A stretch of 64,000 bases of DNA from Bolinopsis microptera (taxonomy: Eukaryota; Ctenophora; Tentaculata; Lobata; Bolinopsidae), in the NCBI RefSeq assembly GCF_026151205.1, contig NC_087072.1:6372084-6436083 (forward strand), given 5' to 3'. Made by a program: the position numbers and the translations under genes. Shown piece after piece: positions 23,366 through 45,336 of the stretch. The notes beneath the pieces are model-generated. The model saw nothing but the letters and a program-made list of their open reading frames with translations. It was not told the origin of the DNA and ran no database searches. Position 1 is the first letter of the stretch. Every line of letters begins with the position of its first letter.

Positions 23366-25197
23366 GTGTTTCTAATGATCAGGGTTGGCTACAGAGTTAC
23401 CTGACGGCGACAGAGCGGACGAACAGGACCATGACAAACACAGGAACACAAAATAATTTTAACAAATACCTTCGCAAAACTGGTCACACAGCCCTAGTCT
23501 CTGTCCAGAACAGGTCACATGGCCCTGGCCCCTGGTCTCTGTGGCAATACGAACACGGGATATTGTGATGTGAAGTGACCGATTAACGGGACTACACGTA
23601 GTAAAACATGTTATAGTTCTTGGTGTGCCTCTCTCTCTCTTGGAGGTGTCAGGTTGCAAAACAACGGGACTACTACCTGGTAGTGACATGTGAACTGGAA
23701 CGTTATTACCCTCAGGGTTATGTATTGGGAGCCGAGGTGGAATCACAGAGTGTTGATTAGTGATTACCCGTTTAACTCATCAACAACGTTTCTGTAATAC
23801 TAATAGAGTGAATAATTTATCTGCAGAGAAGACAGTCCGGTCTGATGAAAGTGAGTTTGGATGGAGATAGACTGCAACGGAGTGGAAGTTTGGAGTGTGG
23901 AATTCAGAAGCTTATCAGAAATGTGCCATGAAACAATGAAGGCCACAAATCAGCCACCATCTTTTATAGACCAGCATCCGGTGAGAAATATGTTGATGTC
24001 GTTTGGTTTTAGTTGACACGAATTCACCAAATATACTTTTTCAGTGGTGTGTGAGAACCCAAGCTAGCCCAACGGCCAACGCTGACTTCAACCCGTTCAA
24101 CTAACCATTAATTCCGGGGGTTACTGCCATGGAACAGTGACCTGATAACAATAGTTCGTGAGATAGGGCTCTGATATCATTACTTGGGGAAACCAAAATG
24201 TCGACTACCGGGTAGTCGATTTTTAGACGGTTTTTGCGGAAAGTCGCGTTAAAGTTGATGCCGTGGTGTCAGTAAAATGGTATGGAACCCTCCATATATA
24301 TCGTCTCGAGCTTTATATATAGTAAGATAGTAAGTTATAAATATGGTTCATCCCAAAAACGAACACTATTAGTACTACACCTGGGACTACACTGGAGAGA
24401 GAACCGTCCCTGAACTAGAAGATCAAGAAGAAATTTACTTGTAATTTTTCAAATTTCATTTATTATTTTATTGATTTTCTCAAATATTGGGTTTTATTTG
24501 TAAAATAAAGAAATGAAAAAAAAAATCCCCAAATACCATGATTTAATTTGGGGTAAGAAACGAGTTGGTTTTCGGCAAAAAATCCCATATTTTCGTTCCC
24601 AAACCATTTAGGTCACTGGAATTTCGTCGAGTATAAATATGTCTCGTAAGGTACTATATAAAAATGAAAATCAATAACGACACATTGGGCATTTACAATT
24701 GCTATAAAATCTATAATTTCAAACATGTTGCCAGCTAGTAAGCTAGTTGTTGACAACATCAACACAACCGAAAACAAGGTTAATGAACAATCAACATAAC
24801 ATACATAATTTACATACATAATTTACATTACATTACATAATTAACTAAGCTTAAGATCTTTATCTTTAAATAATTTTAAAGTTTTTTCGATGTAAAATGT
24901 ACGATACTGGCTTTGTATTGTCCATGTCATTAATCATTAAAATCTACCGGAATCATTTCATAATACTTTATAATATAATATCACTTCATAATACTTTCAG
25001 GTAATCTAATGAAAATGTTTTTCTATCTAAACGAGTAGAATGCGATCTCTTCTGCTATTATAAGGAATTTAAGTATCACTACGAAAAATATTACATGAAC
25101 CATATCACCAATATGACTAGATTCTGTTCTTAATTGAATAGAAAGACGGTCAATTTTATACATATCGCTGTAACAACGCTATGACAACGCTATAGCT

Positions 25198-26928
25198 CTA
25201 TACTCTATAGCAACGATATATATTATAGATATCGTGTACAATTGCACAGAAAGTAAAAAACGAAGCTACCTGAAGAAATTTGATGGTAAAACGGAAGAGG
25301 AAGTCTATAGATTTTCTCCAAATTTCTTGCTCGGAGTCCTTTGTTAACTTCTTTAAATCGGGAGTGAAGTCTTTCTTTAGCATCATCAATTTGTCGTATA
25401 TTGTATTTGTGAACCTCTGACAGTTGTCAAAGATAAAATGATACGGTTTTATGAGTTCCTTTGTTTCCCCAATTGATAGCATCATCTGATTAAAGGTCGC
25501 ATTTCCTTGAAAGCCCTTAAAATCTTCAATCAACTCTGGATAGTACTGCTTCCAAAATGCTGTCGTTATCCGTTCTTTGCCTCTCAACTTACCTAAAACG
25601 TCACTTTTCCGATTACTTGACTGAATAATAATTTCTGGTCCATATTTTTCAATTGATATCCACCAAGGTTTTGATACAGGGTGGATACGCTGTTCTCGCA
25701 ATTCAGGGAAGTTATCATAAGCTTCGTTCAAATATTCTATGAACTCATAGTCGGAGCCAATTACCAGAAAGGAATGATAAAGAAGATATTCTGATAGAAA
25801 TGGAATGTAAACCTCAGTTAAAATGGGTTCTCGGTACTTTTCGATCTGGAATATTTTGTTACTAACACTGTTAGCTCGTTCATCACTAGTAGGCATTTTA
25901 TTTGGATATTGTGCAACTGCAAGTTCCCCATCTAAGTTCAAAATATTCAGTGTTTTAACGTCTATGAAGAACTCAGCAGGTCCGTGGGGTGTATATTTGT
26001 AAACAAAGTATGTCTGACCTTCGATATTACGGAGTTCGATAGGTGATCCTACCTTAAGCTCAATTTTATCGATGTCGAGGGATCCACGCCTAGGATAAAG
26101 ATACCATCGAATCCGTTCAGCCCAAAGACCACCGACTCTCAAGCTTATAGATTTCACAACTGATGCCACTTTGTCGTTAACAATACTCTGCACGTTTTCG
26201 ATATAATTACAATCCCAATCCCATTTCTTCTTCAAGGAAAGTCTGTTAAATATCATTTTACTGAAAGCGCGATTGTGTGAACACGTCCTAACTTCACGTG
26301 TTTCATCCGCCTCATAGAACTGTTCTAGAAAAGCTATAAGATCCGGCACTATTGATCTATAGGAAAGAGTGGATTTTGCTTTATCCTCGATGATCAATTT
26401 CGGTTGAAGACCTTGGTTGCTGCGGGGAATCCTCCCAAAATTAGCGATAACAGTCTCCCGGTTATTGCAATCGAAACTGTCTTGAAAGTAAATGTACTGT
26501 CCATCACTTTCAATTGTAGCATAACAACTGGAAGCTTTGTCATGACCACGATAAAACTTTAACAAAACAAATGTTTTACTGGGCTCCAATGTGCTGATCA
26601 GATCCTGTTCAGAAACAGTTTCATAAATTTGAACTTGAACAATTGTAGTGCATTCAAATTCTTTCCGGATGTAATTGGAGATAAACTGTCTCGCAAGAGG
26701 AAATGACAACAGTGTCTCTATCAGAATGTTGTCCTTATCAGGGCGAAGAGGCATCCCATTCTCTCCAGGCTGGTGGATTGTTACAACGAGCCCCTCCAGT
26801 TTCTTAAACGGAGGAATAAAATATGGAAGTAAGGGAGCCATTAGTATTATTATTGCCATTATTATTATTAATGCTACAACAATAATAACGATTCTTTTCA
26901 CCATCCCAACCGTTGAATTGAGCCACAT
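25198..26928 (-). CDS. Membrane-anchored protein with LRAT/PPPDE-like His-Cys domain, copy A
   Basis: The open frame runs from 27057 (619 codons). I prefer the Met at 26928 (residue 44) because homology with copy D begins at this region (WLNSTVGMVKR). Residue numbers below use the long frame. A membrane helix lies at 55-78 after a KR, giving a signal-anchor. A luminal/extracellular domain (about 85-410) holds TIVQVQIYETV, TFVLLKFYRGH and IESDGQYIYFQD. The C-terminal domain (about 415-560) has LLYHSFLV with His428, WWISIEK, and FDNCQRFTNTIYDKL with Cys546. A beta-strand His followed by an Asn-Cys-x-x-Phe helix is the pattern of permuted NlpC/P60 folds (LRAT, PPPDE), so a thiol hydrolase or acyltransferase is possible; the fold is inferred. 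A second hydrophobic stretch spans 583-608. Residue 474 is Pro in A and B but Leu in C and D. The frame stops early relative to D. Confidence 0.75.
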   Translation of the reverse strand: MWLNSTVGMVKRIVIIVVALIIIMAIIILMAPLLPYFIPPFKKLEGLVVTIHQPGENGMPLRPDKDNILIETLLSFPLARQFISNYIRKEFECTTIVQVQIYETVSEQDLISTLEPSKTFVLLKFYRGHDKASSCYATIESDGQYIYFQDSFDCNNRETVIANFGRIPRSNQGLQPKLIIEDKAKSTLSYRSIVPDLIAFLEQFYEADETREVRTCSHNRAFSKMIFNRLSLKKKWDWDCNYIENVQSIVNDKVASVVKSISLRVGGLWAERIRWYLYPRRGSLDIDKIELKVGSPIELRNIEGQTYFVYKYTPHGPAEFFIDVKTLNILNLDGELAVAQYPNKMPTSDERANSVSNKIFQIEKYREPILTEVYIPFLSEYLLYHSFLVIGSDYEFIEYLNEAYDNFPELREQRIHPVSKPWWISIEKYGPEIIIQSSNRKSDVLGKLRGKERITTAFWKQYYPELIEDFKGFQGNATFNQMMLSIGETKELIKPYHFIFDNCQRFTNTIYDKLMMLKKDFTPDLKKLTKDSEQEIWRKSIDFLFRFTIKFLQVASFFTFCAIVHDIYNIYRCYRV

Positions 26929-27639
26929 ATTTGAGCGATGAGTTATCCCACGGTTCAGATGAACACCTTGCTGCAGGCATCTGGCACTTTCCACTGCATG
27001 TTCTACTGGTGATGAAACTATCAATTCAAATAAGTCAATTAAAAATAAAATCGGCAAATATAGGAGATTATATATGTAAATTTTTAATTTTATCAGTTCA
27101 TAATGAGCTCATGTTTTTTTTGTTCGTTTTTGTCCATGCGATTTTGTCCGTTTTCAGAAAATAGGGTACCGTACGGACAAAAATTGTAACTTTTGATTTG
27201 TAACAGGCTATCTGCAGAAATGGGTAGCACGGTCAACGACAATGATCCTTTCTCAAACTTTCAATCCTCAGTTAGGTACAAAGAATAGTCTACACATTTT
27301 TTACTAACATAAAAAGGGATGAAAATCACTTTATTTATGAAAAATAACGTTCGGTAAATCAATATTCGCTTAATTACTTTAGGCTAGGTAAGAACTCGAT
27401 ACTCAGAGTCAGATGAAGAGCTAGTGAACACTGAACATCTACTATATGTGCTTTAGTATGTAGTAGATATACTGGAAATTGAATTTGAATCTAAAGTAAA
27501 AATCCCAAAGTAACCGAGTAATGTCTTCTAATTACTGCACTATAGGACCTATTCAGACTTACAAGGTCGAGTCTTTTAAAATATTTACGATGTCAAACAA
27601 ATTTAAAAGTAATACGAGAGCTGAGAAGGTATCGTACAT

Positions 27640-27856
27640 ACAAGGACTGAGGAGGAGGAGGAGGAGGAGAAGGACTAGGGAGGAGGAGGTGAAGGAGGAG
27701 GATGAAGAGGAGGAGGAGGAGGATGAAGAAGAGGAGGAGGAGGAGGAGAAGGAGGACTGAGGAGGATGAATAGGAGGATGAGGAGGATTAATGGGGAGGA
27801 GGAGAACTGAGGAGGAGGAGGAGGAGAACTGAGAAGGAGGACTGAGGAGGACTGAG
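27640..27856 (+). repeat. GGA-rich purine tract closing unit A
   Basis: Irregular GGA/GAGGACTGA repeats on the + strand, an almost pure-purine stretch. The same tract closes units B (32113-32329) and C, and is where the tandem junctions fall. Any Glu-rich frame through it is a by-product of the repeat. Confidence 0.9.
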
Positions 27857-30800
27857 GTGTTTCTAATGATCAGGGTTGGCTACAGAGTTACCTGACGGCG
27901 ACAGAGCGGACGAACAGGACCATGACAAACACAGGAACACAAAATAATTTTAACAAATACCTTCGCAAAACTGGTCACACAGCCCTAGTCTCTGTCCAGA
28001 ACAGGTCACATGGCCCTGGCCCCTGGTCTCTGTGGCAATACGAACACGGGATATTGTGATGTGAAGTGACCGATTAACGGGACTACACGTAGTAAAACAT
28101 GTTATAGTTCTTGGTGTGCCTCTCTCTCTCTTGGAGGTGTCAGGTTGCAAAACAACGGGACTACTACCTGGTAGTGACATGTGAACTGGAACGTTATTAC
28201 CCTCAGGGTTATGTATTGGGAGCCGAGGTGGAATCACAGAGTGTTGATTAGTGATTACCCGTTTAACTCATCAACAACGTTTCTGTAATACTAATAGAGT
28301 GAATAATTTATCTGCAGAGAAGACAGTCCGGTCTGATGAAAGTGAGTTTGGATGGAGATAGACTGCAACGGAGTGGAAGTTTGGAGTGTGGAATTCAGAA
28401 GCTTATCAGAAATGTGCCATGAAACAATGAAGGCCACAAATCAGCCACCATCTTTTATAGACCAGCATCCGGTGAGAAATATGTTGATGTCGTTTGGTTT
28501 TAGTTGACACGAATTCACCAAATATACTTTTTCAGTGGTGTGTGAGAACCCAAGCTAGCCCAACGGCCAACGCTGACTTCAACCCGTTCAACTAACCATT
28601 AATTCCGGGGGTTACTGCCATGGAACAGTGACCTGATAACAATAGTTCGTGAGATAGGGCTCTGATATCATTACTTGGGGAAACCAAAATGTCGACTACC
28701 GGGTAGTCGATTTTTAGACGGTTTTTGCGGAAAGTCGCGTTAAAGTTGATGCCGTGGTGTCAGTAAAATGGTATGGAACCCTCCATATATATCGTCTCGA
28801 GCTTTATATATAGTAAGATAGTAAGTTATAAATATGGTTCATCCCAAAAACGAACACTATTAGTACTACACCTGGGACTACACTGGAGAGAGAACCGTCC
28901 CTGAACTAGAAGATCAAGAAGAAATTTACTTGTAATTTTTCAAATTTCATTTATTATTTTATTGATTTTCTCAAATATTGGGTTTTATTTGTAAAATAAA
29001 GAAATGAAAAAAAAAATCCCCAAATACCATGATTTAATTTGGGGTAAGAAACGAGTTGGTTTTCGGCAAAAAATCCCATATTTTCGTTCCCAAACCATTT
29101 AGGTCACTGGAATTTCGTCGAGTATAAATATGTCTCGTAAGGTACTATATAAAAATGAAAATCAATAACGACACATTGGGCATTTACAATTGCTATAAAA
29201 TCTATAATTTCAAACATGTTGCCAGCTAGTAAGCTAGTTGTTGACAACATCAACACAACCGAAAACAAGGTTAATGAACAATCAACATACATAATTTACA
29301 TTACATTACATAATTAACTAAGCTTAAGATCTTTATCTTTAAATAATTTTAAAGTTTTTTCGATGTAAAATGTACGATACTGGCTTTGTATTGTCCATGT
29401 CATTAATCATTAAAATCTACCGGAATCATTTCATAATACTTTATAATATAATATCACTTCATAATACTTTCAGGTAATCTAATGAAAATGTTTTTCTATC
29501 TAAACGAGTAGAATGCGATCTCTTCTGCTATTATAAGGAATTTAAGTATCACTACGAAAAATATTACATGAACCATATCACCAATATGACTAGATTCTGT
29601 TCTTAATTGAATAGAAAGACGGTCAATTTTATACATATCGCTGTAACAACGCTATGACAACGCTATAGCTCTATACTCTATAGCAACGATATATATTATA
29701 GATATCGTGTACAATTGCACAGAAAGTAAAAAACGAAGCTACCTGAAGAAATTTGATGGTAAAACGGAAGAGGAAGTCTATAGATTTTCTCCAAATTTCT
29801 TGCTCGGAGTCCTTTGTTAACTTCTTTAAATCGGGAGTGAAGTCTTTCTTTAGCATCATCAATTTGTCGTATATTGTATTTGTGAACCTCTGACAGTTGT
29901 CAAAGATAAAATGATACGGTTTTATGAGTTCCTTTGTTTCCCCAATTGATAGCATCATCTGATTAAAGGTCGCATTTCCTTGAAAGCCCTTAAAATCTTC
30001 AATCAACTCTGGATAGTACTGCTTCCAAAATGCTGTCGTTATCCGTTCTTTGCCTCTCAACTTACCTAAAACGTCACTTTTCCGATTACTTGACTGAATA
30101 ATAATTTCTGGTCCATATTTTTCAATTGATATCCACCAAGGTTTTGATACAGGGTGGATACGCTGTTCTCGCAATTCAGGGAAGTTATCATAAGCTTCGT
30201 TCAAATATTCTATGAACTCATAGTCGGAGCCAATTACCAGAAAGGAATGATAAAGAAGATATTCTGATAGAAATGGAATGTAAACCTCAGTTAAAATGGG
30301 TTCTCGGTACTTTTCGATCTGGAATATTTTGTTACTAACACTGTTAGCTCGTTCATCACTAGTAGGCATTTTATTTGGATATTGTGCAACTGCAAGTTCC
30401 CCATCTAAGTTCAAAATATTCAGTGTTTTAACGTCTATGAAGAACTCAGCAGGTCCGTGGGGTGTATATTTGTAAACAAAGTATGTCTGACCTTCGATAT
30501 TACGGAGTTCGATAGGTGATCCTACCTTAAGCTCAATTTTATCGATGTCGAGGGATCCACGCCTAGGATAAAGATACCATCGAATCCGTTCAGCCCAAAG
30601 ACCACCGACTCTCAAGCTTATAGATTTCACAACTGATGCCACTTTGTCGTTAACAATACTCTGCACGTTTTCGATATAATTACAATCCCAATCCCATTTC
30701 TTCTTCAAGGAAAGTCTGTTAAATATCATTTTACTGAAAGCGCGATTGTGTGAACACGTCCTAACTTCACGTGTTTCATCCGCCTCATAGAACTGTTCTA

Positions 30801-32329
30801 GAAAAGCTATAAGATCCGGCACTATTGATCTATAGGAAAGAGTGGATTTTGCTTTATCCTCGATGATCAATTTCGGTTGAAGACCTTGGTTGCTGCGGGG
30901 AATCCTCCCAAAATTAGCGATAACAGTCTCCCGGTTATTGCAATCGAAACTGTCTTGAAAGTAAATGTACTGTCCATCACTTTCAATTGTAGCATAACAA
31001 CTGGAAGCTTTGTCATGACCACGATAAAACTTTAACAAAACAAATGTTTTACTGGGCTCCAATGTGCTGATCAGATCCTGTTCAGAAACAGTTTCATAAA
31101 TTTGAACTTGAACAATTGTAGTGCATTCAAATTCTTTCCGGATGTAATTGGAGATAAACTGTCTCGCAAGAGGAAATGACAACAGTGTCTCTATCAGAAT
31201 GTTGTCCTTATCAGGGCGAAGAGGCATCCCATTCTCTCCAGGCTGGTGGATTGTTACAACGAGCCCCTCCAGTTTCTTAAACGGAGGAATAAAATATGGA
31301 AGTAAGGGAGCCATTAGTATTATTATTGCCATTATTATTATTAATGCTACAACAATAATAACGATTCTTTTCACCATCCCAACCGTTGAATTGAGCCACA
31401 TATTTGAGCGATGAGTTATCCCACGGTTCAGATGAACACCTTGCTGCAGGCATCTGGCACTTTCCACTGCATGTTCTACTGGTGATGAAACTATCAATTC
31501 AAATAAGTCAATTAAAAATAAAATCGGCAAATATAGGAGATTATATATGTAAATTTTTAATTTTATCAGTTCATAATGAGCTCATGTTTTTTTTGTTCGT
31601 TTTTGTCCATGCGATTTTGTCCGTTTTCAGAAAATAGGGTACCGTACGGACAAAAATTGTAACTTTTGATTTGTAACAGGCTATCTGCAGAAATGGGTAG
31701 CACGGTCAACGACAATGATCCTTTCTCAAACTTTCAATCCTCAGTTAGGTACAAAGAATAGTCTACACATTTTTTACTAACATAAAAAGGGATGAAAATC
31801 ACTTTATTTATGAAAAATAACGTTCGGTAAATCAATATTCGCTTAATTACTTTAGGCTAGGTAAGAACTCGATACTCAGAGTCAGATGAAGAGCTAGTGA
31901 ACACTGAACATCTACTATATGTGCTTTAGTATGTAGTAGATATACTGGAAATTGAATTTGAATCTAAAGTAAAAATCCCAAAGTAACCGAGTAATGTCTT
32001 CTAATTACTGCACTATAGGACCTATTCAGACTTACAAGGTCGAGTCTTTTAAAATATTTACGATGTCAAACAAATTTAAAAGTAATACGAGAGCTGAGAA
32101 GGTATCGTACATACAAGGACTGAGGAGGAGGAGGAGGAGGAGAAGGACTAGGGAGGAGGAGGTGAAGGAGGAGGATGAAGAGGAGGAGGAGGAGGATGAA
32201 GAAGAGGAGGAGGAGGAGGAGAAGGAGGACTGAGGAGGATGAATAGGAGGATGAGGAGGATTAATGGGGAGGAGGAGAACTGAGGAGGAGGAGGAGGAGA
32301 ACTGAGAAGGAGGACTGAGGAGGACTGAG
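27857..32329 (-). repeat. Tandem unit B, 4473 bp
   Basis: Direct repeat of unit A. The clearest difference is loss of 18 bp near 29290 in an ACATACATAATTT-type run. The left junction joins the purine tract of A directly to GTGTTTCTAATG, without the AATTAAGGG flank seen before A. Confidence 0.95.
29671..31401 (-). CDS. Membrane-anchored protein with LRAT/PPPDE-like His-Cys domain, copy B
   Basis: The encoded protein is identical to copy A over the whole frame (open from 31530; preferred Met at 31401). It has the same signal-anchor, His428 and Cys546, Pro474, and the same early stop. Identity this complete means a very recent duplication, active gene conversion or an assembly artefact. The flanking 18-bp deletion shows B is not simply A counted twice. 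Confidence 0.75.
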   Translation of the reverse strand: MWLNSTVGMVKRIVIIVVALIIIMAIIILMAPLLPYFIPPFKKLEGLVVTIHQPGENGMPLRPDKDNILIETLLSFPLARQFISNYIRKEFECTTIVQVQIYETVSEQDLISTLEPSKTFVLLKFYRGHDKASSCYATIESDGQYIYFQDSFDCNNRETVIANFGRIPRSNQGLQPKLIIEDKAKSTLSYRSIVPDLIAFLEQFYEADETREVRTCSHNRAFSKMIFNRLSLKKKWDWDCNYIENVQSIVNDKVASVVKSISLRVGGLWAERIRWYLYPRRGSLDIDKIELKVGSPIELRNIEGQTYFVYKYTPHGPAEFFIDVKTLNILNLDGELAVAQYPNKMPTSDERANSVSNKIFQIEKYREPILTEVYIPFLSEYLLYHSFLVIGSDYEFIEYLNEAYDNFPELREQRIHPVSKPWWISIEKYGPEIIIQSSNRKSDVLGKLRGKERITTAFWKQYYPELIEDFKGFQGNATFNQMMLSIGETKELIKPYHFIFDNCQRFTNTIYDKLMMLKKDFTPDLKKLTKDSEQEIWRKSIDFLFRFTIKFLQVASFFTFCAIVHDIYNIYRCYRV

Positions 32330-35300
32330 GTGTTTCTAATGATCAGGGTTGGCTACAGAGTTACCTGACGGCGACAGAGCGGACGAACAGGACCATGACA
32401 AACACAGGAACACAAAATAATTTTAACAAATACCTTCGCAAAACTGGTCACACAGCCCTAGTCTCTGTCCAGAACAGGTCACATGGCCCTGGCCCCTGGT
32501 CTCTGTGGCAATACGAACACGGGATATTGTGATGTGAAGTGACCGATTAACGGGACTACACGTAGTAAAACATGTTATAGTTCTTGGTGTGCCTCTCTCT
32601 CTCTTGGAGGTGTCAGGTTGCAAAACAACGGGACTACTACCTGGTAGTGACATGTGAACTGGAACGTTATTACCCTCAGGGTTATGTATTGGGAGCCGAG
32701 GTGGAATCACAGAGTGTTGATTAGTGATTACCCGTTTAACTCATCAACAACGTTTCTGTAATACTAATAGAGTGAATAATTTATCTGCAGAGAAGACAGT
32801 CCGGTCTGATGAAAGTGAGTTTGGATGGAGATAGACTGCAACGGAGTGGAAGTTTGGAGTGTGGAATTCAGAAGCTTATCAGAAATGTGCCATGAAACAA
32901 TGAAGGCCACAAATCAGCCACCATCTTTTATAGACCAGCATCCGGTGAGAAATATGTTGATGTCGTTTGGTTTTAGTTGACACGAATTCACCAAATATAC
33001 TTTTTCAGTGGTGTGTGAGAACCCAAGCTAGCCCAACGGCCAACGCTGACTTCAACCCGTTCAACTAACCATTAATTCCGGGGGTTACTGCCATGGAACA
33101 GTGACCTGATAACAATAGTTCGTGAGATAGGGCTCTGATATCATTACTTGGGGAAACCAAAATGTCGACTACCGGGTAGTCGATTTTTAGACGGTTTTTG
33201 CGGAAAGTCGCGTTAAAGTTGATGCCGTGGTGTCAGTAAAATGGTATGGAACCCTCCATATATATCGTCTCGAGCTTTATATATAGTAAGATAGTAAGTT
33301 ATAAATATGGTTCATCCCAAAAACGAACACTATTAGTACTACACCTGGGACTACACTGGAGAGAGAACCGTCCCTGAACTAGAAGATCAAGAAGAAATTT
33401 ACTTGTAATTTTTCAAATTTCATTTATTATTTTATTGATTTTCTCAAATATTGGGTTTTATTTGTAAAATAAAGAAATGAAAAAAAAAATCCCCAAATAC
33501 CATGATTTAATTTGGGGTAAGAAACGAGTTGGTTTTCGGCAAAAAATCCCATATTTTCGTTCCCAAACCATTTAGGTCACTGGAATTTCGTCGAGTATAA
33601 ATATGTCTCGTAAGGTACTATATAAAAATGAAAATCAATAACGACACATTGGGCATTTACAATTGCTATAAAATCTATAATTTCAAACATGTTGCCAGCT
33701 AGTAAGCTAGTTGTTGACAACATCAACACAACCGAAAACAAGGTTAATGAACAATCAACATAACATACATAATTTACATACATAATTTACATTACATTAC
33801 ATAATTAACTAAGCTTAAGATCTTTATCTTTAAATAATTTTAAAGTTTTTTCGATGTAAAATGTACGATACTGGCTTTGTATTGTCCATGTCATTAATCA
33901 TTAAAATCTACCGGAATCATTTCATAATACTTTATAATATAATATCACTTCATAATACTTTCAGGTAATCTAATGAAAATGTTTTTCTATCTAAACGAGT
34001 AGAATGCGATCTCTTCTGCTATTATAAGGAATTTAAGTATCACTACGAAAAATATTACATGAACCATATCACCAATATGACTAGATTCTGTTCTTAATTG
34101 AATAGAAAGACGGTCAATTTTATACATATCGCTGTAACAACGCTATGACAACGCTATAGCTCTATACTCTATAGCAACGATATATATTATAGATATCGTG
34201 TACAATTGCACAGAAAGTAAAAAACGAAGCTACCTGAAGAAATTTGATGGTAAAACGGAAGAGGAAGTCTATAGATTTTCTCCAAATTTCTTGCTCGGAG
34301 TCCTTTGTTAACTTCTTTAAATCGGGAGTGAAGTCTTTCTTTAGCATCATCAATTTGTCGTATATTGTATTTGTGAACCTCTGACAGTTGTCAAAGATAA
34401 AATGATACGGTTTTATGAGTTCCTTTGTTTCCCCAATTGATAGCATCATCTGATTAAAGGTCGCATTTCCTTGAAAGCCCTTAAAATCTTCAATCAACTC
34501 TGGATAGTACTGCTTCCAAAATGCTGTCGTTATCCGTTCTTTGCCTCTCAACTTACCTAAAACGTCACTTTTCCGATTACTTGACTGAATAATAATTTCT
34601 AGTCCATATTTTTCAATTGATATCCACCAAGGTTTTGATACAGGGTGGATACGCTGTTCTCGCAATTCAGGGAAGTTATCATAAGCTTCGTTCAAATATT
34701 CTATGAACTCATAGTCGGAGCCAATTACCAGAAAGGAATGATAAAGAAGATATTCTGATAGAAATGGAATGTAAACCTCAGTTAAAATGGGTTCTCGGTA
34801 CTTTTCGATCTGGAATATTTTGTTACTAACACTGTTAGCTCGTTCATCACTAGTAGGCATTTTATTTGGATATTGTGCAACTGCAAGTTCCCCATCTAAG
34901 TTCAAAATATTCAGTGTTTTAACGTCTATGAAGAACTCAGCAGGTCCGTGGGGTGTATATTTGTAAACAAAGTATGTCTGACCTTCGATATTACGGAGTT
35001 CGATAGGTGATCCTACCTTAAGCTCAATTTTATCGATGTCGAGGGATCCACGCCTAGGATAAAGATACCATCGAATCCGTTCAGCCCAAAGACCACCGAC
35101 TCTCAAGCTTATAGATTTCACAACTGATGCCACTTTGTCGTTAACAATACTCTGCACGTTTTCGATATAATTACAATCCCAATCCCATTTCTTCTTCAAG
35201 GAAAGTCTGTTAAATATCATTTTACTGAAAGCGCGATTGTGTGAACACGTCCTAACTTCACGTGTTTCATCCGCCTCATAGAACTGTTCTAGAAAAGCTA

Positions 35301-36828
35301 TAAGATCCGGCACTATTGATCTATAGGAAAGAGTGGATTTTGCTTTATCCTCGATGATCAATTTCGGTTGAAGACCTTGGTTGCTGCGGGGAATCCTCCC
35401 AAAATTAGCGATAACAGTCTCCCGGTTATTGCAATCGAAACTGTCTTGAAAGTAAATGTACTGTCCATCACTTTCAATTGTAGCATAACAACTGGAAGCT
35501 TTGTCATGACCACGATAAAACTTTAACAAAACAAATGTTTTACTGGGCTCCAATGTGCTGATCAGATCCTGTTCAGAAACAGTTTCATAAATTTGAACTT
35601 GAACAATTGTAGTGCATTCAAATTCTTTCCGGATGTAATTGGAGATAAACTGTCTCGCAAGAGGAAATGACAACAGTGTCTCTATCAGAATGTTGTCCTT
35701 ATCAGGGCGAAGAGGCATCCCATTCTCTCCAGGCTGGTGGATTGTTACAACGAGCCCCTCCAGTTTCTTAAACGGAGGAATAAAATATGGAAGTAAGGGA
35801 GCCATTAGTATTATTATTGCCATTATTATTATTAATGCTACAACAATAATAACGATTCTTTTCACCATCCCAACCGTTGAATTGAGCCACATATTTGAGC
35901 GATGAGTTATCCCACGGTTCAGATGAACACCTTGCTGCAGGCATCTGGCACTTTCCACTGCATGTTCTACTGGTGATGAAACTATCAATTCAAATAAGTC
36001 AATTAAAAATAAAATCGGCAAATATAGGAGATTATATATGTAAATTTTTAATTTTATCAGTTCATAATGAGCTCATGTTTTTTTTGTTCGTTTTTGTCCA
36101 TGCGATTTTGTCCGTTTTCAGAAAATAGGGTACCGTACGGACAAAAATTGTAACTTTTGATTTGTAACAGGCTATCTGCAGAAATGGGTAGCACGGTCAA
36201 CGACAATGATCCTTTCTCAAACTTTCAATCCTCAGTTAGGTACAAAGAATAGTCTACACATTTTTTACTAACATAAAAAGGGATGAAAATCACTTTATTT
36301 ATGAAAAATAACGTTCGGTAAATCAATATTCGCTTAATTACTTTAGGCTAGGTAAGAACTCGATACTCAGAGTCAGATGAAGAGCTAGTGAACACTGAAC
36401 ATCTACTATATGTGCTTTAGTATGTAGTAGATATACTGGAAATTGAATTTGAATCTAAAGTAAAAATCCCAAAGTAACCGAGTAATGTCTTCTAATTACT
36501 GCACTATAGGACCTATTCAGACTTACAAGGTCGAGTCTTTTAAAATATTTACGATGTCAAACAAATTTAAAAGTAATACGAGAGCTGAGAAGGTATCGTA
36601 CATACAAGGACTGAGGAGGAGGAGGAGGAGGAGAAGGACTAGGGAGGAGGAGGTGAAGGAGGAGGATGAAGAGGAGGAGGAGGAGGATGAAGAAGAGGAG
36701 GAGGAGGAGGAGAAGGAGGACTGAGGAGGATGAATAGGAGGATGAGGAGGATTAATGGGGAGGAGGAGAACTGAGGAGGAGGAGGAGGAGAACTGAGAAG
36801 GAGGACTGAGGAGGAGGACTGAGGACTG
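32330..36828 (-). repeat. Tandem unit C, about 4.5 kb
   Basis: Third direct copy. It keeps the 18-bp segment lost in B and has one coding difference from A and B (base 34601). Its right end does not return to the GTGTTTC junction but runs on into an expanded purine repeat (to about 37427), marking the original edge of the array. Confidence 0.92.
34162..35892 (-). CDS. Membrane-anchored protein with LRAT/PPPDE-like His-Cys domain, copy C
   Basis: Frame open from 36021, preferred Met at 35892. It differs from A and B by one residue, Leu474 instead of Pro (codon CTA for CCA), in the segment between WWISIEK and the Cys motif. Copy D also has Leu here, so C keeps the older state. All other features, including the early stop relative to D, are shared. 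Confidence 0.75.
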   Translation of the reverse strand: MWLNSTVGMVKRIVIIVVALIIIMAIIILMAPLLPYFIPPFKKLEGLVVTIHQPGENGMPLRPDKDNILIETLLSFPLARQFISNYIRKEFECTTIVQVQIYETVSEQDLISTLEPSKTFVLLKFYRGHDKASSCYATIESDGQYIYFQDSFDCNNRETVIANFGRIPRSNQGLQPKLIIEDKAKSTLSYRSIVPDLIAFLEQFYEADETREVRTCSHNRAFSKMIFNRLSLKKKWDWDCNYIENVQSIVNDKVASVVKSISLRVGGLWAERIRWYLYPRRGSLDIDKIELKVGSPIELRNIEGQTYFVYKYTPHGPAEFFIDVKTLNILNLDGELAVAQYPNKMPTSDERANSVSNKIFQIEKYREPILTEVYIPFLSEYLLYHSFLVIGSDYEFIEYLNEAYDNFPELREQRIHPVSKPWWISIEKYGLEIIIQSSNRKSDVLGKLRGKERITTAFWKQYYPELIEDFKGFQGNATFNQMMLSIGETKELIKPYHFIFDNCQRFTNTIYDKLMMLKKDFTPDLKKLTKDSEQEIWRKSIDFLFRFTIKFLQVASFFTFCAIVHDIYNIYRCYRV

Positions 36829-37427: not shown

Positions 37428-37469
37428 TCAATCCATCAAGTCAAAATCACAGGTCACCTACATGGTTCA

Positions 37470-37520
37470 AAATTGGTAGTATACAGTGTTGGCAAATCTT
37501 TTGAAATTTTCAGTAAAAAG
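37470..37520 (-). pseudogene. Eroded fragment of the His-Cys family
   Basis: On the - strand the segment reads FKRFANTVY, matching CKRFANTVY of gene E and CQRFANTIY of gene D, with the Cys codon changed to Phe. DNA similarity to gene E (about 43940-43985) spans some 30-35 bp. The rest of the gene is not recognisable. A separate block at about 37738-37872 resembles the 3' flank of gene E (about 43262-43460), so remnants of more than one old copy lie here. Confidence 0.55.
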
Positions 37521-38050
37521 TACGTTTATTTGATTCGTCAGTATTTTGTCGGCACTATAAAAAAAACCAATCACATAACTCTTACCGATTTCTTGATTAA
37601 ATGGTTTGTGAATTGCAAACGGACGGACAGACGCGACGGACGAAGTTTTCACTATTTCTAAGGAGATTAATTAAGTAGATAACAAATAACTATTTAACTA
37701 TAATACATGAATAGAAATAGAAAAACGATATCAGAGTAATATCAATAAAACAGAACAATAAGGTCTGGCACCGACAAAATAAAGCAGTGAACGCAACTTT
37801 ACAATACAAGCTGACAAAGCAACAGATAAGCACTCTTAGATAAGAACCCATGACATGACATACTGTTATTTAATACTGTATGGGCATTAAATAAATGCCT
37901 TTGTTTTTATGTCCGTTTTAAATGCAATTTCCGGTCAAATAACTTCCGCTAAAGTAGTAGCAGAAAGTAGTTGAGTGTGCACTTCGATGTATAGAAGCTT
38001 TGTGACTGACCCTGATCATTGCATTAGGGAAAACGAACTTTAATTAGGGG
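37521..38050. other. Region between the eroded fragment and unit D
   Basis: No gene. It includes the block TAAGGTCTGGC..CGACAAAAT (about 37760) also found downstream of gene E near 43280. Confidence 0.5.
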
Positions 38051-38322
38051 GTGTTTCTAATGATCAGGGTTAACTACAGAGTTACCTGACGGCGACAGAG
38101 TGGACGAACAGGACCATGACAAACATAACACAAAATAATTTTAACAAATACCTTCGCAAAACTGGTCACACAGCCCTACTGTCCAGAACAGGTGACAGGG
38201 CCCCTGGCCCCTGATCTCTGTGGCAATACGAACACGGGATATTGTGATGTGAAGTGACCGCTTAACGGGACTACACGTAGCAAAACATGGTATAGTTCTT
38301 GGTGTGCACTCCCTCTCTCCTG

Positions 38323-38617
<295 letters not shown>

Positions 38618-39410
38618 GGTAATATATTGTGAGACGAGGTGGAGTCACAGAGTGTTGATTATCCGTTTAACATGTTAACAAATATTCTGTAATAGAGTGA
38701 ATAATTTATCTTCAGAGAAAACAGCTCGGTCTGATGAAAGTGGTTAAGTACTCGCGTACTTAAACTTGCATATATAACTTACAAACTTATACAATATTCT
38801 GAAGAATATCTCTCCACCCGCTTCTTAGATCTTGGGTTATTATATAGATTTGTGACTGTTACAGTGATTGGACTGCTGCTCATTTCTGTAAGACTTTAAC
38901 GATTTTTAAATCATCCACTCTCATGAAGATAGAGTGCGACGGAGGTTTGTAGTTAATATTTAGAGAGAAGAGAAGTAGCCACAAATCACCCACCATCTTC
39001 TGTAGACCAGCATCCGGCGGTCAGGGTAGTAATTTTGGTGCAACATTTTCCTGGCCACCTTTGCTTTACTTTTTCGATCAAAATCAATAACGACACATTG
39101 AGTATTCACAATAATTGTTATTATAATAGGGGGTATTCTAATACCATAAAATCAAACATGTTGCCAGTTAGCAAGTTATACTAGTTATTGACAAAATCAA
39201 CACAACCGAAAATGTTTTAATCGACATACATAATTAACAAACATTTTTAGACAATTTCAGTTTTTTTAAATGTAAAATGTGCGATAATGGATTTTTCATT
39301 AACCATTAAAATACACCATATTCATTTCATAGTACTTGCAAGTAATCTTACAATAACTTTTACCTAAAAATAAAGTTGAGAAAAGTTCAGTATTTCTCTT
39401 GTGCAATTGT

Positions 39411-39489
39411 TCTGTAATGTGTAAAATGATATGTTATGTGTAAAATGATATGTTATGTGTAAAATGATATGTTATGTGTAAAATGATAT
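39411..39489 (+). repeat. 19-bp tandem repeat 3' of gene D
   Basis: Four copies of a unit with core AAAATGATATGTTATGTGT, just past the 3' end of gene D. Confidence 0.9.
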
Positions 39490-39556
39490 CTATTCAGCTT
39501 CATAATAATGCATGGATATGAAATTATATCCAAGATTCACAACTTTTTAAAATCAT

Positions 39557-41653
39557 TCAATTCTCTATATACAAGTAAATAAAGTCATACGACCATTTCA
39601 CTACGCCATACTGCAAAAGAATGTTATTCAAATATGTTTTATAATCTGAATAGAATTCAACTGGAGAACGGTAAGTAGTTATGCCCGGGTCATCACCATG
39701 GAAATCCACGGGAGATCGGTATTTAAGAGCCACTATGAATGTGTACAAATGATGTTCATACAACCAAAACAAGTAAAATGCGATCTCTTCTGCTATTATC
39801 AGGAATTTAAGTATCACTACGAAAAATATTATATGAACCATATCACAAATATGACTATATTCTGTTCTTAATCGAATAGAAAGACGGTAAATTTTAGTGA
39901 AAAGATGGTTCAGACATATCGTGATAATTACCAATATTGCACAGTTTGTAAAAAATAAAGCTAACCGAAGAAATTTGAGGGTAAAAATGAAGAGGACTTC
40001 TATAAATTTTCTCCAGATTTCTTGTTCGGAATCAATTGTTACCTTCTTCAAATCGGGAGTAAAGTCTTTCTTTAACATCATCAATTTGTCGTAGATTGTA
40101 TTTGCGAACCTCTGACAGTTGTCGAGGAGAACATGATAAGATTTTCTGAGTTCGTTTGTTTCCCAGATTGAAAGCAACATCTGATTGAAGGTCGCATTTC
40201 CTTGAAAGCCTTTAAAACCTTCAATCAACTCAGGATAGTACTGCTTCCAAAATGGTGTCGTTATCCGTTCTTTGCCTCTCAACTTACCTGAAACGTCACT
40301 TTTCCGATAACTTGACTGAATGATAATTTCTAGTCCATATTTTTCAATCGATATCCACCAAGGAGTTGATACAGGATGAATACGCAATTTTCGCACTCCT
40401 CGATAATTTTGGTACGCGTCGGACCAAGAATCTTCAAACCTATAGTTGTAGCCAACAACCAGAAAGGAATGATAAAGTAGATATTCCGATAGAAAAGGTA
40501 CGTAAAATTCAGTTGCAACAGGAACTCGGTACTTTTCGATCTGGAATATTGCGTTAGCTTGTTCATCACCAGGCATTTTATCTTGTTCAAGTTTCCAATC
40601 TAAGATCGTGCAATCGTTCAACAGATTCAACGTTTTAATGTCTATGAAGAACTCGCCAGGTAAGAAGGAGTTATATTTGTAAATAACTGTGCTCTTTCCT
40701 CCGACATCACGGAATTCCAAAGGCGGTCCCATCAAAAGTTTTAAATTATCGATATTGAGGGATCCATCACGCCTAGGATAAATATAATATCGAATCCGTT
40801 CAGCCCAAAGACCACCGATTCTCAAGCCTATAGATTTCACAACTGATGCCACTTTGTCGATAACAATACTCTGCACATTATCGATATAATTACAATCCCA
40901 ATCCCATTTCTTCTTCAATGAAAGCCTGTTAAATATCATTTTGCTGAAAGCACGATTGTGTGAACATGTCCTTAGTTCACGTGCCTCATCCGCCTCATAG
41001 AAACTTTCGAAAAAAACCATAAGATCTGGCACTATTGAGCTATAGGAAGGAGACGTAGATTTTGCTTTATCCTCGATAATCAATTTCGGTTGAAGACCAA
41101 GGTTGCTGCGGGGAATCCTCCCGAGATTAGCGAGAACAGTCTCCCGGTCATTGCAGTGATCGAAATTATCTTGAAAGTAAATGTACTGTCCATCACTTTT
41201 AATTGTAGCATAGTAGGCTACAGGGTTGTCATGACGACGATAAAACTTTAACAAAACAAACGTTTTATTGGGTTCAAATGTGCTGATCAGATCCTGTTCA
41301 GAAACAGTTTCATAAATTTGAACTTGAACAATTGTAGTATCGTTAAATTCGGCCAAGATGTAATTGGACATAGCCTGTCTCCAAACAGGAAATGACAACA
41401 GTGTCTCTATCATAATAGTGTTCTGGTCAGGGCTAAGAAGCACCCTCTCCCTACCAGGTGTCATGAGATTGATTGGAGGCTGATGACGTATTACAACGAG
41501 CCCCTCCATTTTCTTAAACGGAAGGATAAAATATGGAAGTAAGGGAGCCATTAGTATTATTATTGCTACAACAATAAAAAAGATTCTTTTCACCATCCCA
41601 ACTGTTGAATTGAGCCGAAGGATATAACTGTAATAATGCCACATCTGAGCCAT
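39557..41653 (-). CDS. Membrane-anchored His-Cys domain protein, copy D, with extra C-terminal membrane region
   Basis: A 698-codon uninterrupted frame, the longest member. Signal-anchor helix at about 23-43, domain with TIVQVQIYETV and SDGQYIYFQD, then LLYHSFLV (His395), WWISIEK and DNCQRFANTIYDKL (Cys513). After this, unlike A-C, the frame continues through hydrophobic stretches at about 550-582 and 605-645 (MVHIIFFVVILKFL) to a tail in which YRSPV(D/E)F occurs twice. The product may therefore cross the membrane more than once, with the His-Cys domain between anchors. The fold and any enzymatic role are inferred from the motif pattern. Whether D or A-C has the ancestral C-terminus is not settled, but open homologous codons lie beyond the stop in A-C. 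Confidence 0.75.
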   Translation of the reverse strand: MAQMWHYYSYILRLNSTVGMVKRIFFIVVAIIILMAPLLPYFILPFKKMEGLVVIRHQPPINLMTPGRERVLLSPDQNTIMIETLLSFPVWRQAMSNYILAEFNDTTIVQVQIYETVSEQDLISTFEPNKTFVLLKFYRRHDNPVAYYATIKSDGQYIYFQDNFDHCNDRETVLANLGRIPRSNLGLQPKLIIEDKAKSTSPSYSSIVPDLMVFFESFYEADEARELRTCSHNRAFSKMIFNRLSLKKKWDWDCNYIDNVQSIVIDKVASVVKSIGLRIGGLWAERIRYYIYPRRDGSLNIDNLKLLMGPPLEFRDVGGKSTVIYKYNSFLPGEFFIDIKTLNLLNDCTILDWKLEQDKMPGDEQANAIFQIEKYRVPVATEFYVPFLSEYLLYHSFLVVGYNYRFEDSWSDAYQNYRGVRKLRIHPVSTPWWISIEKYGLEIIIQSSYRKSDVSGKLRGKERITTPFWKQYYPELIEGFKGFQGNATFNQMLLSIWETNELRKSYHVLLDNCQRFANTIYDKLMMLKKDFTPDLKKVTIDSEQEIWRKFIEVLFIFTLKFLRLALFFTNCAILVIITICLNHLFTKIYRLSIRLRTEYSHICDMVHIIFFVVILKFLIIAEEIAFYLFWLYEHHLYTFIVALKYRSPVDFHGDDPGITTYRSPVEFYSDYKTYLNNILLQYGVVKWSYDFIYLYIEN

Positions 41654-43632
41654 GAGTTATCCCAGGATTCAGATAAACACCTTGCGGATAGGAAGAATGT
41701 CCAATGCCTTCAACTTTATTTTCTTCTGATGGCGAACTAATAAAAATAAATCAAGGTTAACAGTCAATCGAGATTTTACTGTAAGACTGTACTTCATTTT
41801 TTAATATGTATTATCTAATGTAGTTGCATAGTGGGTACACAGTCTATAATTATACACACTATATATACAATTACGAATTCTTAAAAGTTAAACTTAAAGG
41901 TAATAATCTGTAGAGTTAAATGGCATTATATTATAAAATAACTGATAACATAAAAAACGCCCTAGAAACATACAAAATAAGCAAATGATGAAGCATACGA
42001 ATAAATCACCAAATGTACATGAGATAAACTAATAGCTTTAGCGTTTTCCAAGCACAAATCGTACTTTACGAAAATGACGAAAATTGAACAGAAAAAGTAA
42101 CGTTACATACGTTGGCCTTTATAGCTCAGTCACTGATTGACTGATTGCCCAATTGAGGTAATTCTTTTTGTTATGACTTACTATCAGAAATATGTGAATT
42201 CAAAGAATATTCATGTTCATTTTTTTCGAATGAAGGTTCGTTGTCGTATTTATTTGATAGTTTTGATAATCAGATCGAGCCAAATTTTATTGAATTGTGT
42301 ACTAGGCCATTCAAATTACGTTTGTCCTGATCACAGTTAAACGGATTAAAAGATTCAAATTCAAACAATGGTAATGTCTGACCCAATATAAAAAGTAATA
42401 ATTATATGTAATAATATATATAAGTAATCACATGATTACCCAATCAATTTTGCTGACGAAATAAACAGATTACTTGATAACTTCGTCATTTAAAATCTGT
42501 TTTTAAAATTCTTTTCAGAACATATTCCGGATCTCAAATATGAAACACGGCGGTGGTATAAGACCCAACGTATGTAACGTTAGTGTTGCCCCGCCCGGTT
42601 ACCAGCGCGGTTATTAGGTAGCGAAGCACATATATTACATGGTTACGACCAAGTTTCCGTGTGCTCAATGCAAATGATCTCAGCCAGTTCGTAATGTCAA
42701 TGTTAATTTTCGGTTCTATTATATATAGGTAGCTCATGAAACACTTAGCACTACAGATGAGCTCTACAGAGTTAAGTTCATAAGTTCGAGTCTAACCGGG
42801 CTGGAAATAACCACCTTTCACTTCCCCGGACTGACAGTATATTATAATGTGTTTTAATGTAAAAGATGTCACCAGTACTGCACTGATAACAATTATTTGT
42901 GGGTCTGATTTACTGGTACAATCGAAATCGATATCCCTTTCATCCATACAGAGCTTGCTGAAGATGAAGACAACTTAATGACTCAGATATCATATAAAAT
43001 ATGATACCTGAGCAATCTTACCCTAAAATTCAAACGTGGTTCACTGTTCACAGCAGTTTGATCCGTGGCGACTCAGATATAATCTTCGGAATGAAACATG
43101 CATCTATAAACCGGTGTGATCAGCAAGTTAGGTGAGTTATAATTCGTTTAGAAGGGCTTTGAAAGATTCCAGGGATTGAGCCGATGAGATGATATCAGGC
43201 ACGGTATATTGGTAGGTAGAAAATAACTACACATGAAATACAAGAAAAAATATTACAATTTTATCAATAAAACAAAATACTAAGGTCTGGCGACGACAAA
43301 ATAAAGCAGTGAACGTAACTTTACAATAAAAGCTACTTTGATTGATTGAAATAAATTTTCGTGCACATACAGAATGAATGGTTAATAATTTAATAGCTAA
43401 TATACAGCTACAGAGAAAGCACACTTAGATAGGAATACAAATTGTATAGTCATGTAATGTGATATGCATAAGGGCTGTCATTTTATACTATATATAGCAT
43501 ATCTAGTTGATACTGCTACTCAATGTATAAATATCATGCCGCTTGAAAGTTTTACGATTTCTAAGATATTTGCAACATGCTGTCAGATAGTAATGAGATG
43601 TCCTATCATGTGTTCAGACATTGAGCGATATG
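41654..43632. other. Intergenic region between genes D and E
   Basis: No gene recognised. A block near 43262-43460 resembles 37738-37872. A lone GTTCGAGTCTAA near 42785 resembles a tRNA B-box but has no matching tRNA body. Confidence 0.5.
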
Positions 43633-45336
43633 TCAGACACAAGAGCACAAGTAGATGTAGATGAAATTCAGCACTGTCTCAAATATCGATCTCTCACGTT
43701 CTCTATGGTATTTTCTGCTTTTGAGTACACACCCGGGGGTACTGAGGGTGCCATGACAGGTTATCCTTTCATACATTCGTACCATGAACTGATACCATTC
43801 TAACTCGTCGTCCGGCGGATCGTTGCTATTTTCAAAAGTACAACAATCAAAAGAGCCACATTTTCGTTCTGGTATTTTTATCCTTCCATCCTTCAACTTC
43901 GTCAGGTCAATCTTACTAGTCACCTTCAAGGTTGAAATGTGATTGTAAACAGTATTAGCAAATCTTTTGCAATTGTCGGTTACAAGATTATATGATTTCT
44001 CCAACTCGTTGGTCTCTTGAATAATCACGAAAATTTTTGCAAGTGAAACATTTCCACTGTGTCCAATAAACTGTTGCATGAGAGCTGGAGAACTTTTAGT
44101 CACCCGGTCTTTTCCAAGAAACTTTCTAACAACATCTTCTTTCTTATTACTAACTTGAACGGTGATCCCTTTTCCATTTTTCTCAACAGATATCCACCTG
44201 GGCCATATGTTTGGCCAAAAAGTGTTTGTACGATGAATATGATGATCTGATCTGAAGACTACATAGGAGTGGTACAGCACTAAATCAGTTATCGGGTTAG
44301 AAAGGCATTCAATAGCTGGTACTTTGTAAATTTCGAGATAAAAGATATCTGAAGTAACGTTGAATCGATGTCTTAAGAGTCCCTGCAATGCGTCTAAGTT
44401 TTCGACGTCGATAAAAGATTGAAAAGGCTTTTCGCCATCGTACCCCTGTGCATCCCAATACAAAACATTTGTATATAATTGTTCCATACTATCCTTATGA
44501 TTATAGACGTAATATCGAATACGTTTCGACCAGGTGTTACCGATGAGATTCAAAATTGGCTGAACTAATCGTAGTTGTATGGTTTCATAAATCACATTCT
44601 TAACGACCTCATTACGGCTACATTTCCAGTTCAATCTTTTTGATTTTGAAAGTTTGTTGAATACTAATTTAGCTATTTGTTGGTTATAGTAACATGGCTC
44701 ATCCTCTGCGATGGCGGAACGTAATAGCTGGAAAGAAACTAATAGCTCCCACAAGGACGTTAAATTTGCCTCATCATCCAATATGAGCACGGGTTCACTT
44801 CCTTCTTTTCCTCGGAGATCTCGACCTTTGTAACGAAATATAGGACTAGTGAGATAATAAAGCACAGATTCTTGATAGAATATCTCTTTGCCGTCACTTT
44901 CGATAGAAGCATAGATATCGTACACATCCAAGGGGCAATTAAATTTCCTATCTCTGTGAAACTTTATGATGATGAAAGTAGTGTTCTTTTCAGCAAATTC
45001 GTACCAACTTCGCGTTTCATAGTCAACCATAGTTTCGAAAGCCCAGACGTGTACAATAGAGGTATTAACGAAATGATGCTGCATAAATTTGAAAAGAGCA
45101 TTTCCTTCCAAAGGAAAAGTTAGAATTGTTACTCGATCAGGGCGATCGTCACATTTCAATTCGGCTGGTGAAATTTCGTCATGTTCGTAGAACATTATTT
45201 CTTCTATGGTTCTTGAAGGTTGGTTCCAACACAATGCTACAACAAAAAGCGCAACTGTGGCGAGAACAGCTCGAAAAATGTTCATTTTTCTTCTGGAAAA
45301 CAACGACACAATAAAATAGGTTATCCTCACAACCAA
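43633..45336 (-). CDS. Distant paralogue E of the His-Cys membrane-protein family
   Basis: A 567-codon uninterrupted frame. A hydrophobic segment at about 19-36 (after RRK) is a signal-anchor or signal peptide; the Met at residue 18 is an alternative start. It aligns with A-D by eye throughout: FPLEGNALFKFMQHHF, TFIIIKFHRD, IESDGKEIFYQES, LVLYHSYVV (His356), RWISVEKNG, and TDNCKRFANTVYN (Cys456). Keeping both His and Cys despite strong divergence elsewhere argues that they matter. The C-terminus differs from A-D: a Cys-rich, acidic stretch (CGSFDCCTFE) and a short final hydrophobic run instead of long membrane segments. Several N-x-S/T sites fit a luminal or extracellular location. Function unknown. 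Confidence 0.75.
   Translation of the reverse strand: MVVRITYFIVSLFSRRKMNIFRAVLATVALFVVALCWNQPSRTIEEIMFYEHDEISPAELKCDDRPDRVTILTFPLEGNALFKFMQHHFVNTSIVHVWAFETMVDYETRSWYEFAEKNTTFIIIKFHRDRKFNCPLDVYDIYASIESDGKEIFYQESVLYYLTSPIFRYKGRDLRGKEGSEPVLILDDEANLTSLWELLVSFQLLRSAIAEDEPCYYNQQIAKLVFNKLSKSKRLNWKCSRNEVVKNVIYETIQLRLVQPILNLIGNTWSKRIRYYVYNHKDSMEQLYTNVLYWDAQGYDGEKPFQSFIDVENLDALQGLLRHRFNVTSDIFYLEIYKVPAIECLSNPITDLVLYHSYVVFRSDHHIHRTNTFWPNIWPRWISVEKNGKGITVQVSNKKEDVVRKFLGKDRVTKSSPALMQQFIGHSGNVSLAKIFVIIQETNELEKSYNLVTDNCKRFANTVYNHISTLKVTSKIDLTKLKDGRIKIPERKCGSFDCCTFENSNDPPDDELEWYQFMVRMYERITCHGTLSTPGCVLKSRKYHRERERSIFETVLNFIYIYLCSCV

Follow-up and report, generated by a model that had tools for sequence, protein, structure and literature searches.

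PLAAT proteins are described as phospholipases and acyltransferases. PMC10318531 places C97, C92 and LRAT among the permuted families of cluster II and assigns to humans six LRAT-like homologues besides DESI1, DESI2 and a small number of other enzymes in the cluster. For BcPPNE, a YiiX/YaeF-like (C92) protein, PMC3142127 gives the triad His49-Glu64-Cys154, in permuted order. We analysed a stretch of 64,000 nucleotides of the ctenophore Bolinopsis microptera (NCBI RefSeq assembly GCF_026151205.1, contig NC_087072.1, here C1:6372084-6436083; the whole stretch is called the window) and searched the 264.65 Mb genome, comprising 232 contigs, for relatives of five of its genes, A to E. On balance we think it probable, with some reserve, that A to E encode membrane-tethered thiol enzymes of the permuted papain-like type (NlpC/P60, PPPDE/LRAT branch), each with a pseudo-enzyme partner domain, that act on membrane lipids or acylated proteins. 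Judged by sequence matches, the five genes are a diverged cluster, or outliers, within a large genome-wide family, and not an orphan family of five genes.

The listing of open reading frames (ORFs) with translations contained five long uninterrupted ORFs on the minus strand. They correspond to the five genes with an anchor and two domains reported in a preliminary description of this DNA, where the cluster was taken to begin at position 23366, which is where the first tandem unit starts. The genes had also been called intronless; this holds for the coding frames, which are uninterrupted, but introns in untranslated parts are invisible to this evidence. The genes are as follows.

25198..27057, minus strand: gene A, 619 codons from TTG; anchor, degenerate N-domain, catalytic-type C-domain
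29671..31530, minus strand: gene B, nucleotide-identical to A
34162..36021, minus strand: gene C, one nucleotide (one amino acid) different from A
39557..41653, minus strand: gene D, about 72% amino acid identity to A in the parts matched by tblastn; extra hydrophobic C-terminal tail, perhaps multi-pass
43633..45336, minus strand: gene E, about 29% amino acid identity to A in the parts matched by tblastn

Because B equals A and C differs by one nucleotide, the five genes amount to three clearly distinct proteins. In 20 mononucleotide shuffles of the window, no open frame on either strand exceeded 166 codons, so the five frames are not due to chance. TTG is the listed start of A, B, C and E; the likely starts are ATGs aligned at the anchor, at residue 52 of A (position 26904), residue 20 of D and residue 18 of E (position 45285).

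The extent of the C-domain and its candidate active-site residues are listed below.

25312..25860, minus strand: C-domain of A, predicted permuted papain-like; the same in B (29785-30333) and C (34276-34824)
40007..40555, minus strand: C-domain of D
43861..44352, minus strand: C-domain of E, the best window match to PF05903 (E-value 0.0019, 18.5 bits, below the cut-off of 29.2)
25774..25776, minus strand: His428 of A, proposed catalytic His; B 30247-30249, C 34738-34740, D 40469-40471, E 44269-44271
25648..25650, minus strand: Glu470 of A, candidate third (acidic) residue; B 30121-30123, C 34612-34614, D 40343-40345, E 44182-44184
25420..25422, minus strand: Cys546 of A, proposed nucleophile; B 29893-29895, C 34384-34386, D 40115-40117, E 43969-43971

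Conservation was assessed with relatives from the same genome. Thirty loci (L026-L055) included the five window genes, one stop-bearing place (L029/L034) and a near copy of L039 (L040), the last two of which were left unaligned; the remaining 22 relatives together with A, D and E made up the 25 rows of alignment A6. Removing L044, which has a long insertion, and L050 gave the 23 rows of alignment A7 (20 relatives plus A, D and E). The His of L050 is doubtful, as its His strand and Cys part lie in different frames (L050 is the same place as L025). The 23 rows are not 23 independent lines, since they include the close copies L049/L054, L041/L047 and L038/L039. Seven of 226 columns were invariant in all 23 C-domains, whose identity with A falls as low as 15%; in the numbering of A these are His428, Lys471, Arg496, Tyr539, Asn545, Cys546 and Phe549. 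A Glu or Asp directly precedes the invariant Lys in 23 of 23. His lies N-terminal to Cys in every row, with Cys in an NC-x-x-F context, and around Cys546 this extends to Tyr-x5-Asn-Cys-x-x-Phe. As had been claimed, the motifs are retained in E, the most diverged member, as LYHSY, WISVEK and DNCKRFANT. From this pattern we infer that the invariant His and Cys are catalytic and that the acidic residue would be the third member of the triad.

PF05903 (Peptidase_C97/PPPDE) was the top sub-threshold Pfam match in all four window proteins that were sent (A, C, D and E), and the window C-domains alone matched it with E-values of 0.0019-0.011 on the Asn-Cys helix. Across the 25 aligned members, PF05903 was matched by 19 at E ≤ 1 (best 2.9e-9), and PF04970 (LRAT) came second with eight. 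Two of ten relatives sent singly passed the PF05903 cut-off (L035 with 37.4 bits, L049 with 31.7), with matches that span both His and Cys. A PF05903 scan of the whole genome gave 12 matches at E ≤ 0.01, nine of them within the family; four were above the cut-off, of which three were family members, the third being C2:59368. The matches outside the family were two parts of a canonical-looking DeSI gene (L056, on C9) and one further locus (L057), with a stop inside the match. As a control, two of 14 well-known genomes were matched below the cut-off and none above it. Homology to the superfamily is thus supported, at the level of sequence profiles, through the paralogues L035, L049 and C2:59368, to which the window genes are linked by paralogy. 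The best LRAT match, in L035, reached 17.0 bits (E-value 0.0075; PF04970 cut-off 24.3), and in the five members with coordinates seen it covered the Cys part only. No PF04970 match was found in the window proteins at E-values up to 1 or in the window C-domains up to 10.

Searching the PDB with a profile of the 23 C-domains gave 13 matches, of which the best 11 were PLAAT2, PLAAT3, PLAAT4, an LRAT chimera, PPPDE1 and PPPDE2 (E-values 0.05-0.2, over the Cys motif) and the last two were G-protein constructs. With an earlier profile, nine of nine matches were of PLAAT/LRAT/PPPDE type (E-values 0.4-0.65). Each of these E-values is weak by itself; the evidence lies in the best matches all belonging to one superfamily and falling on the same motif, and the Tyr-x5-Asn-Cys spacing is identical in the C-domains and in the PLAAT and PPPDE alignments. 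The earlier suggestion of a permuted NlpC/P60 (LRAT, PPPDE) order is supported in part, by sequence homology and through paralogues above the PF05903 cut-off, but not by the window proteins themselves, which stay below it. The window proteins alone gave no NCBIfam match (zero of three), no PDB match for D or for an A/D/E profile, and one weak PHROGs match each (E-values 0.1-0.55), none common to them.

Several other matches were rejected. PDB matches of C-domain profiles to C3 ADP-ribosyltransferase (E-values 0.23-1.1) and succinate dehydrogenase (1.4) were attributed to chance because they missed the Asn-Cys motif and were gone with deeper profiles. NCBIfam matches of the 25 members fell into nine families, each in a single member, and were also judged to be chance. 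DUF832 (herpesvirus), one of two weak matches of protein E (E-value 0.019), was found in one of 25 members and was discarded.

The third residue of LRAT is a second His, where this family has an acidic one; the membrane tether of PLAAT and LRAT is shared with the family. LRAT and PLAAT (HRASLS, PF04970) further resemble the family as permuted NlpC/P60 relatives with an NCxHF motif and as the source of most PDB profile matches (PLAATs), whereas the family proteins are larger, some of them two-domain, and match PF04970 weakly. PPPDE/DeSI proteins (PF05903, MEROPS C97) share the His before Asn-Cys and the Tyr-x5-Asn-Cys-x-x-Phe pattern, but the family differs in having the acidic residue between His and Cys, membrane segments and, in several members, a degenerate second copy of the domain. 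The likeness to YiiX/YaeF-like proteins lies in the order His, Glu, Cys, as given for BcPPNE in PMC3142127, whereas no match to the Pfam family of C92 was found in the 25 members scanned at E ≤ 1.

The extent of the family was estimated from searches of the genome itself. Query D found three distant places outside the window and query E seven at E ≤ 1. A relative of 166 amino acids used as query gave at least 40 matches at E ≤ 1, counting those in the window genes, and a single-domain member at least 39 at E ≤ 0.01. Merging the two relative-query searches at E < 1e-3, with matches less than 2 kb apart joined, yielded at least 41 places, among them the five window genes and some that are fragments, distributed over 10 contigs; members may be missing from this count because only the best candidates were scored. 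Five places have stops in their sole match, and a sixth, on C13, has six stops in the longer of its matches. One place (C2:73699) matches the membrane tail only, and another (C5:7782202-7786350) joins two genes. The window genes are tied to the family by C11:1102861-1103319, matched by E at 2.4e-11 and by D at 1.3e-5. The clustered expansion of the preliminary description is real as a cluster but is part of this genome-wide family. Groups of neighbouring members were also seen on C5 (7.78-7.80 Mb) and C11 (1.07-1.10 Mb). L038, L039 and L040 (C8, 3.83-4.09 Mb) are two-domain relatives with uninterrupted frames that start with MGSAHSKK.

Sponges and cnidarians probably have proteins with WWSLEK and NCxxFA motifs. 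When IMG/VR and prokaryote genomes were scanned, no relative was confirmed at E ≤ 1e-3, which leaves a viral or bacterial origin without support. No dedicated Pfam or NCBIfam model for the family was seen in scans of the 25 members, and literature searches, with subscription papers and preprints outside their reach, found no account of it.

Membrane attachment was assessed by Kyte-Doolittle hydropathy. A, D and E have an N-terminal hydrophobic segment, and all 14 relatives scanned (of the 22 in A6) have at least one transmembrane-like segment; by this measure they would be anchored as LRAT and PLAAT are. Nine single-domain relatives carry four or five such segments after the enzyme domain, and L038 and L039 carry one at the C-terminus.

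In the proposed mechanism, the C-domain Cys would attack a carbonyl, with activation by the His and perhaps orientation by the Glu or Asp. The acyl-thioenzyme would then be resolved by water, as in a hydrolase, or by another acceptor, as in an acyltransferase. With less certainty, the enzymes may act on membrane lipids or on acyl groups carried by membrane proteins, like PLAAT and LRAT, and not on ubiquitin or SUMO as reported for DeSI proteins, since the members scanned carry membrane segments and are kin to PLAAT and LRAT. The dead N-domain might serve, again less surely, as a regulatory or substrate-positioning pseudo-enzyme.

The same fold and thiol chemistry could instead belong to membrane-tethered DeSI/PPPDE-like isopeptidases or peptidases, which would remove ubiquitin- or SUMO-like modifiers or cleave proteins. 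We regard this as unlikely, although it deserves to be taken seriously: PPPDE proteins are described as deubiquitinases and deSUMOylases in PMC10318531, and PF05903 scored above PF04970 in all five relatives with both listed (ten sent). On the other side, the genome has a separate, canonical-looking DeSI gene (L056), so that the role may already be filled, and the membrane segments of the scanned members fit PLAAT and LRAT better. The third position in PPPDE1 is Phe according to PMC3142127 but acidic in 23 of 23 C-domains here, if the two positions are the same. The L056 gene itself consists of an HTAIVV part and an NLLENNCNNF part in two frames. The protein of L057 (790-1545, plus strand; C8:17890700-17893700) is a different one that ends in NNNCQHFSVALFNKL and matches PF05903 with 25.2 bits, below the cut-off; it may represent another divergent permuted papain-like family.

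A number of points weigh against a lipid-directed thiol enzyme in the window. A, C, D and E reach only 13.9-18.5 bits against the PF05903 gathering cut-off of 29.2, and no PDB match was better than E 0.05. AlphaFold2, given three sequences each time, returned a mean pLDDT (predicted local distance difference test) of 34.9 for full-length A/D/E and 34.7 for the C-domain of E; at about 35 no reliable model places His428 near Cys546. The low values are probably due to the shallow alignment. The acidic residue is placed by sequence position alone. Topology is equivocal: charges flanking the membrane segment do not decide it, N-glycosylation sequons (one in A, three in D, five in E) hint at the luminal side, and the MGSAHSKK start of L038-L040 resembles the N-myristoylation signal found on cytosolic proteins. 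Lastly, a lipid substrate holds only a moderate lead over a protein one, because the higher-scoring PPPDE kinship favours an isopeptidase.

The N-terminal half of the window proteins had been described as a globular domain. Profile comparison identifies it as a duplicated copy of the C-domain that lacks His and Cys.

26086..26805, minus strand: N-domain of A, no catalytic His or Cys; B 30559-31278, C 35050-35769
40769..41515, minus strand: N-domain of D, degenerate copy by hhalign
44494..45213, minus strand: N-domain of E, degenerate copy by hhalign

Aligned with hhalign, the C- and N-domain profiles of A, D and E scored 34.5; 100 column shuffles reached no more than 25.2, and the reversed profile reached 10.5. 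With relatives added (seven C-domains against four N-domains) the score rose to 51.9 (probability 95, E-value 3.5e-8), with 20.3 as the maximum in 200 shuffles. Under the global option the probability was only 5.8, so support for the duplication is limited to the region from the second strand through the Cys helix. Catalytic residues are replaced in the copy, for example in A, which has HNRAFSKMIFNRL against DNCQRFTNTIYDKL. The N-domains of L038 and L039 matched the L038 C-domain in a one-sequence BLASTP search (7e-14 and 1e-15), and that of L038 reads DYVYFV for DYHAFV and NKDFAK for NCQDFAK; together with the window N-domains, they make a copy without His and Cys present in two types of member. 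In a tree of C- and N-domains, the L038/L039 N-domains grouped with their own C-domains (support only 82/85), deep support was weak (61/99) and N-domain branches were long. From these groupings we lean towards two independent duplications.

Selection was estimated for A versus D, comparisons with E being saturated. For the C-domain the ratio of nonsynonymous to synonymous substitution rates (dN/dS) came to 0.29 (95% bootstrap 0.18-0.50), for the N-domain to 0.57 (0.36-0.88) and for the linker to 1.0; the C-domain value was below the N-domain value in 97% of bootstrap pairs. An N-domain at 0.57 without His and Cys indicates that the fold persists without catalysis, which would suit a divergent family of largely non-catalytic binding or structural proteins that keep the fold and whose conserved residues are structural. 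We consider such a family very improbable, given that only seven positions are invariant among C-domains as divergent as these, His and Cys among them, and that both are missing from the N-domains of L038/L039 as well as from those of the window genes.

Genes A, B and C lie in a tandem triplication, and a remnant of the tail of D persists beside each.

23365..36815, strand not applicable: tandem triplication of a 4.47-4.49 kb unit carrying A, B and C
25029..25158, minus strand: remnant of the D C-terminal tail in another frame, downstream of the A stop; also 29502-29631 (B) and 33993-34122 (C)

The units differ by one indel of 18 nt and one substitution, and the triplication is either a very recent event or an assembly duplication. 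A to C lack the hydrophobic tail of D because its sequence continues past their stops in broken frames. Genes A, B, C and D each have an element of about 300 bp on their 3' side (23333-23639, 27856-28130, 32329-32603 and 38023-38319); the copy at D is 91-93% identical to the other three, and the element is a possible substrate for unequal exchange behind the triplication. Near-identical units that could be an assembly error, each with a repeat element beside it, would also fit the view that the genes are an artefact of assembly duplication combined with non-coding frames or mobile-element ORFs. This is the least credible of the explanations considered and we give it hardly any weight: the C-domain dN/dS of A versus D is well below 1, the motifs survive in E even at 29% identity, and the family occupies 10 contigs in mostly open frames, so that only the copy number of A, B and C is doubtful.

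If the proteins are active as we propose, they would add a large set of lipid- or protein-acyl-chemistry enzymes from outside the usual model organisms, together with an example from nature of an inactive catalytic domain retained next to its working counterpart. The positions of the candidate active-site residues are precise enough for point mutants. More speculatively, and with rather little confidence, the family could be an expanded animal family pairing an active domain with a pseudo-enzyme copy, perhaps arisen twice independently, that diversifies in tandem arrays; its members could remodel lipids as effectors of innate immunity, of self-recognition or of cell death, and the pseudo-enzyme could be their sensor or brake.

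Other features of the window were recorded. A long GAG-rich tandem array at 36613-37427 matches a strong guanine-cytosine skew at 36-38 kb and is followed by a perfect (TC)145 microsatellite (38326-38615); serine/proline-coding frames in a similar-looking array adjoin another family member at L010 (C11). A transporter gene of SLC1 type (sodium:dicarboxylate / excitatory amino acid) is represented by exon-sized ORFs at 17401-21528 (minus strand), of which three pass the PF00375 cut-off. A calponin-homology piece at 2682-2918 (plus strand; PF00307, E-value 0.0017, below cut-off) resembles, by eye, a GAS2-type gene, with which 1314-1589, without a Pfam match, was also grouped by eye. Two sequences resembled long interspersed nuclear element (LINE) products by eye, with no Pfam match above cut-off: an ORF1-like protein (9732-10613, minus strand) and a fragment resembling the terminal part of a reverse transcriptase (45682-46176, plus strand). 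An uninterrupted ORF of 997 amino acids (58211-61204, minus strand) had no significant Pfam match (best E-value 0.12). A 154 bp inverted repeat (48596-48749 and 48965-49118; 99.4% identity) is possibly foldback-like or like a miniature inverted-repeat transposable element (MITE).

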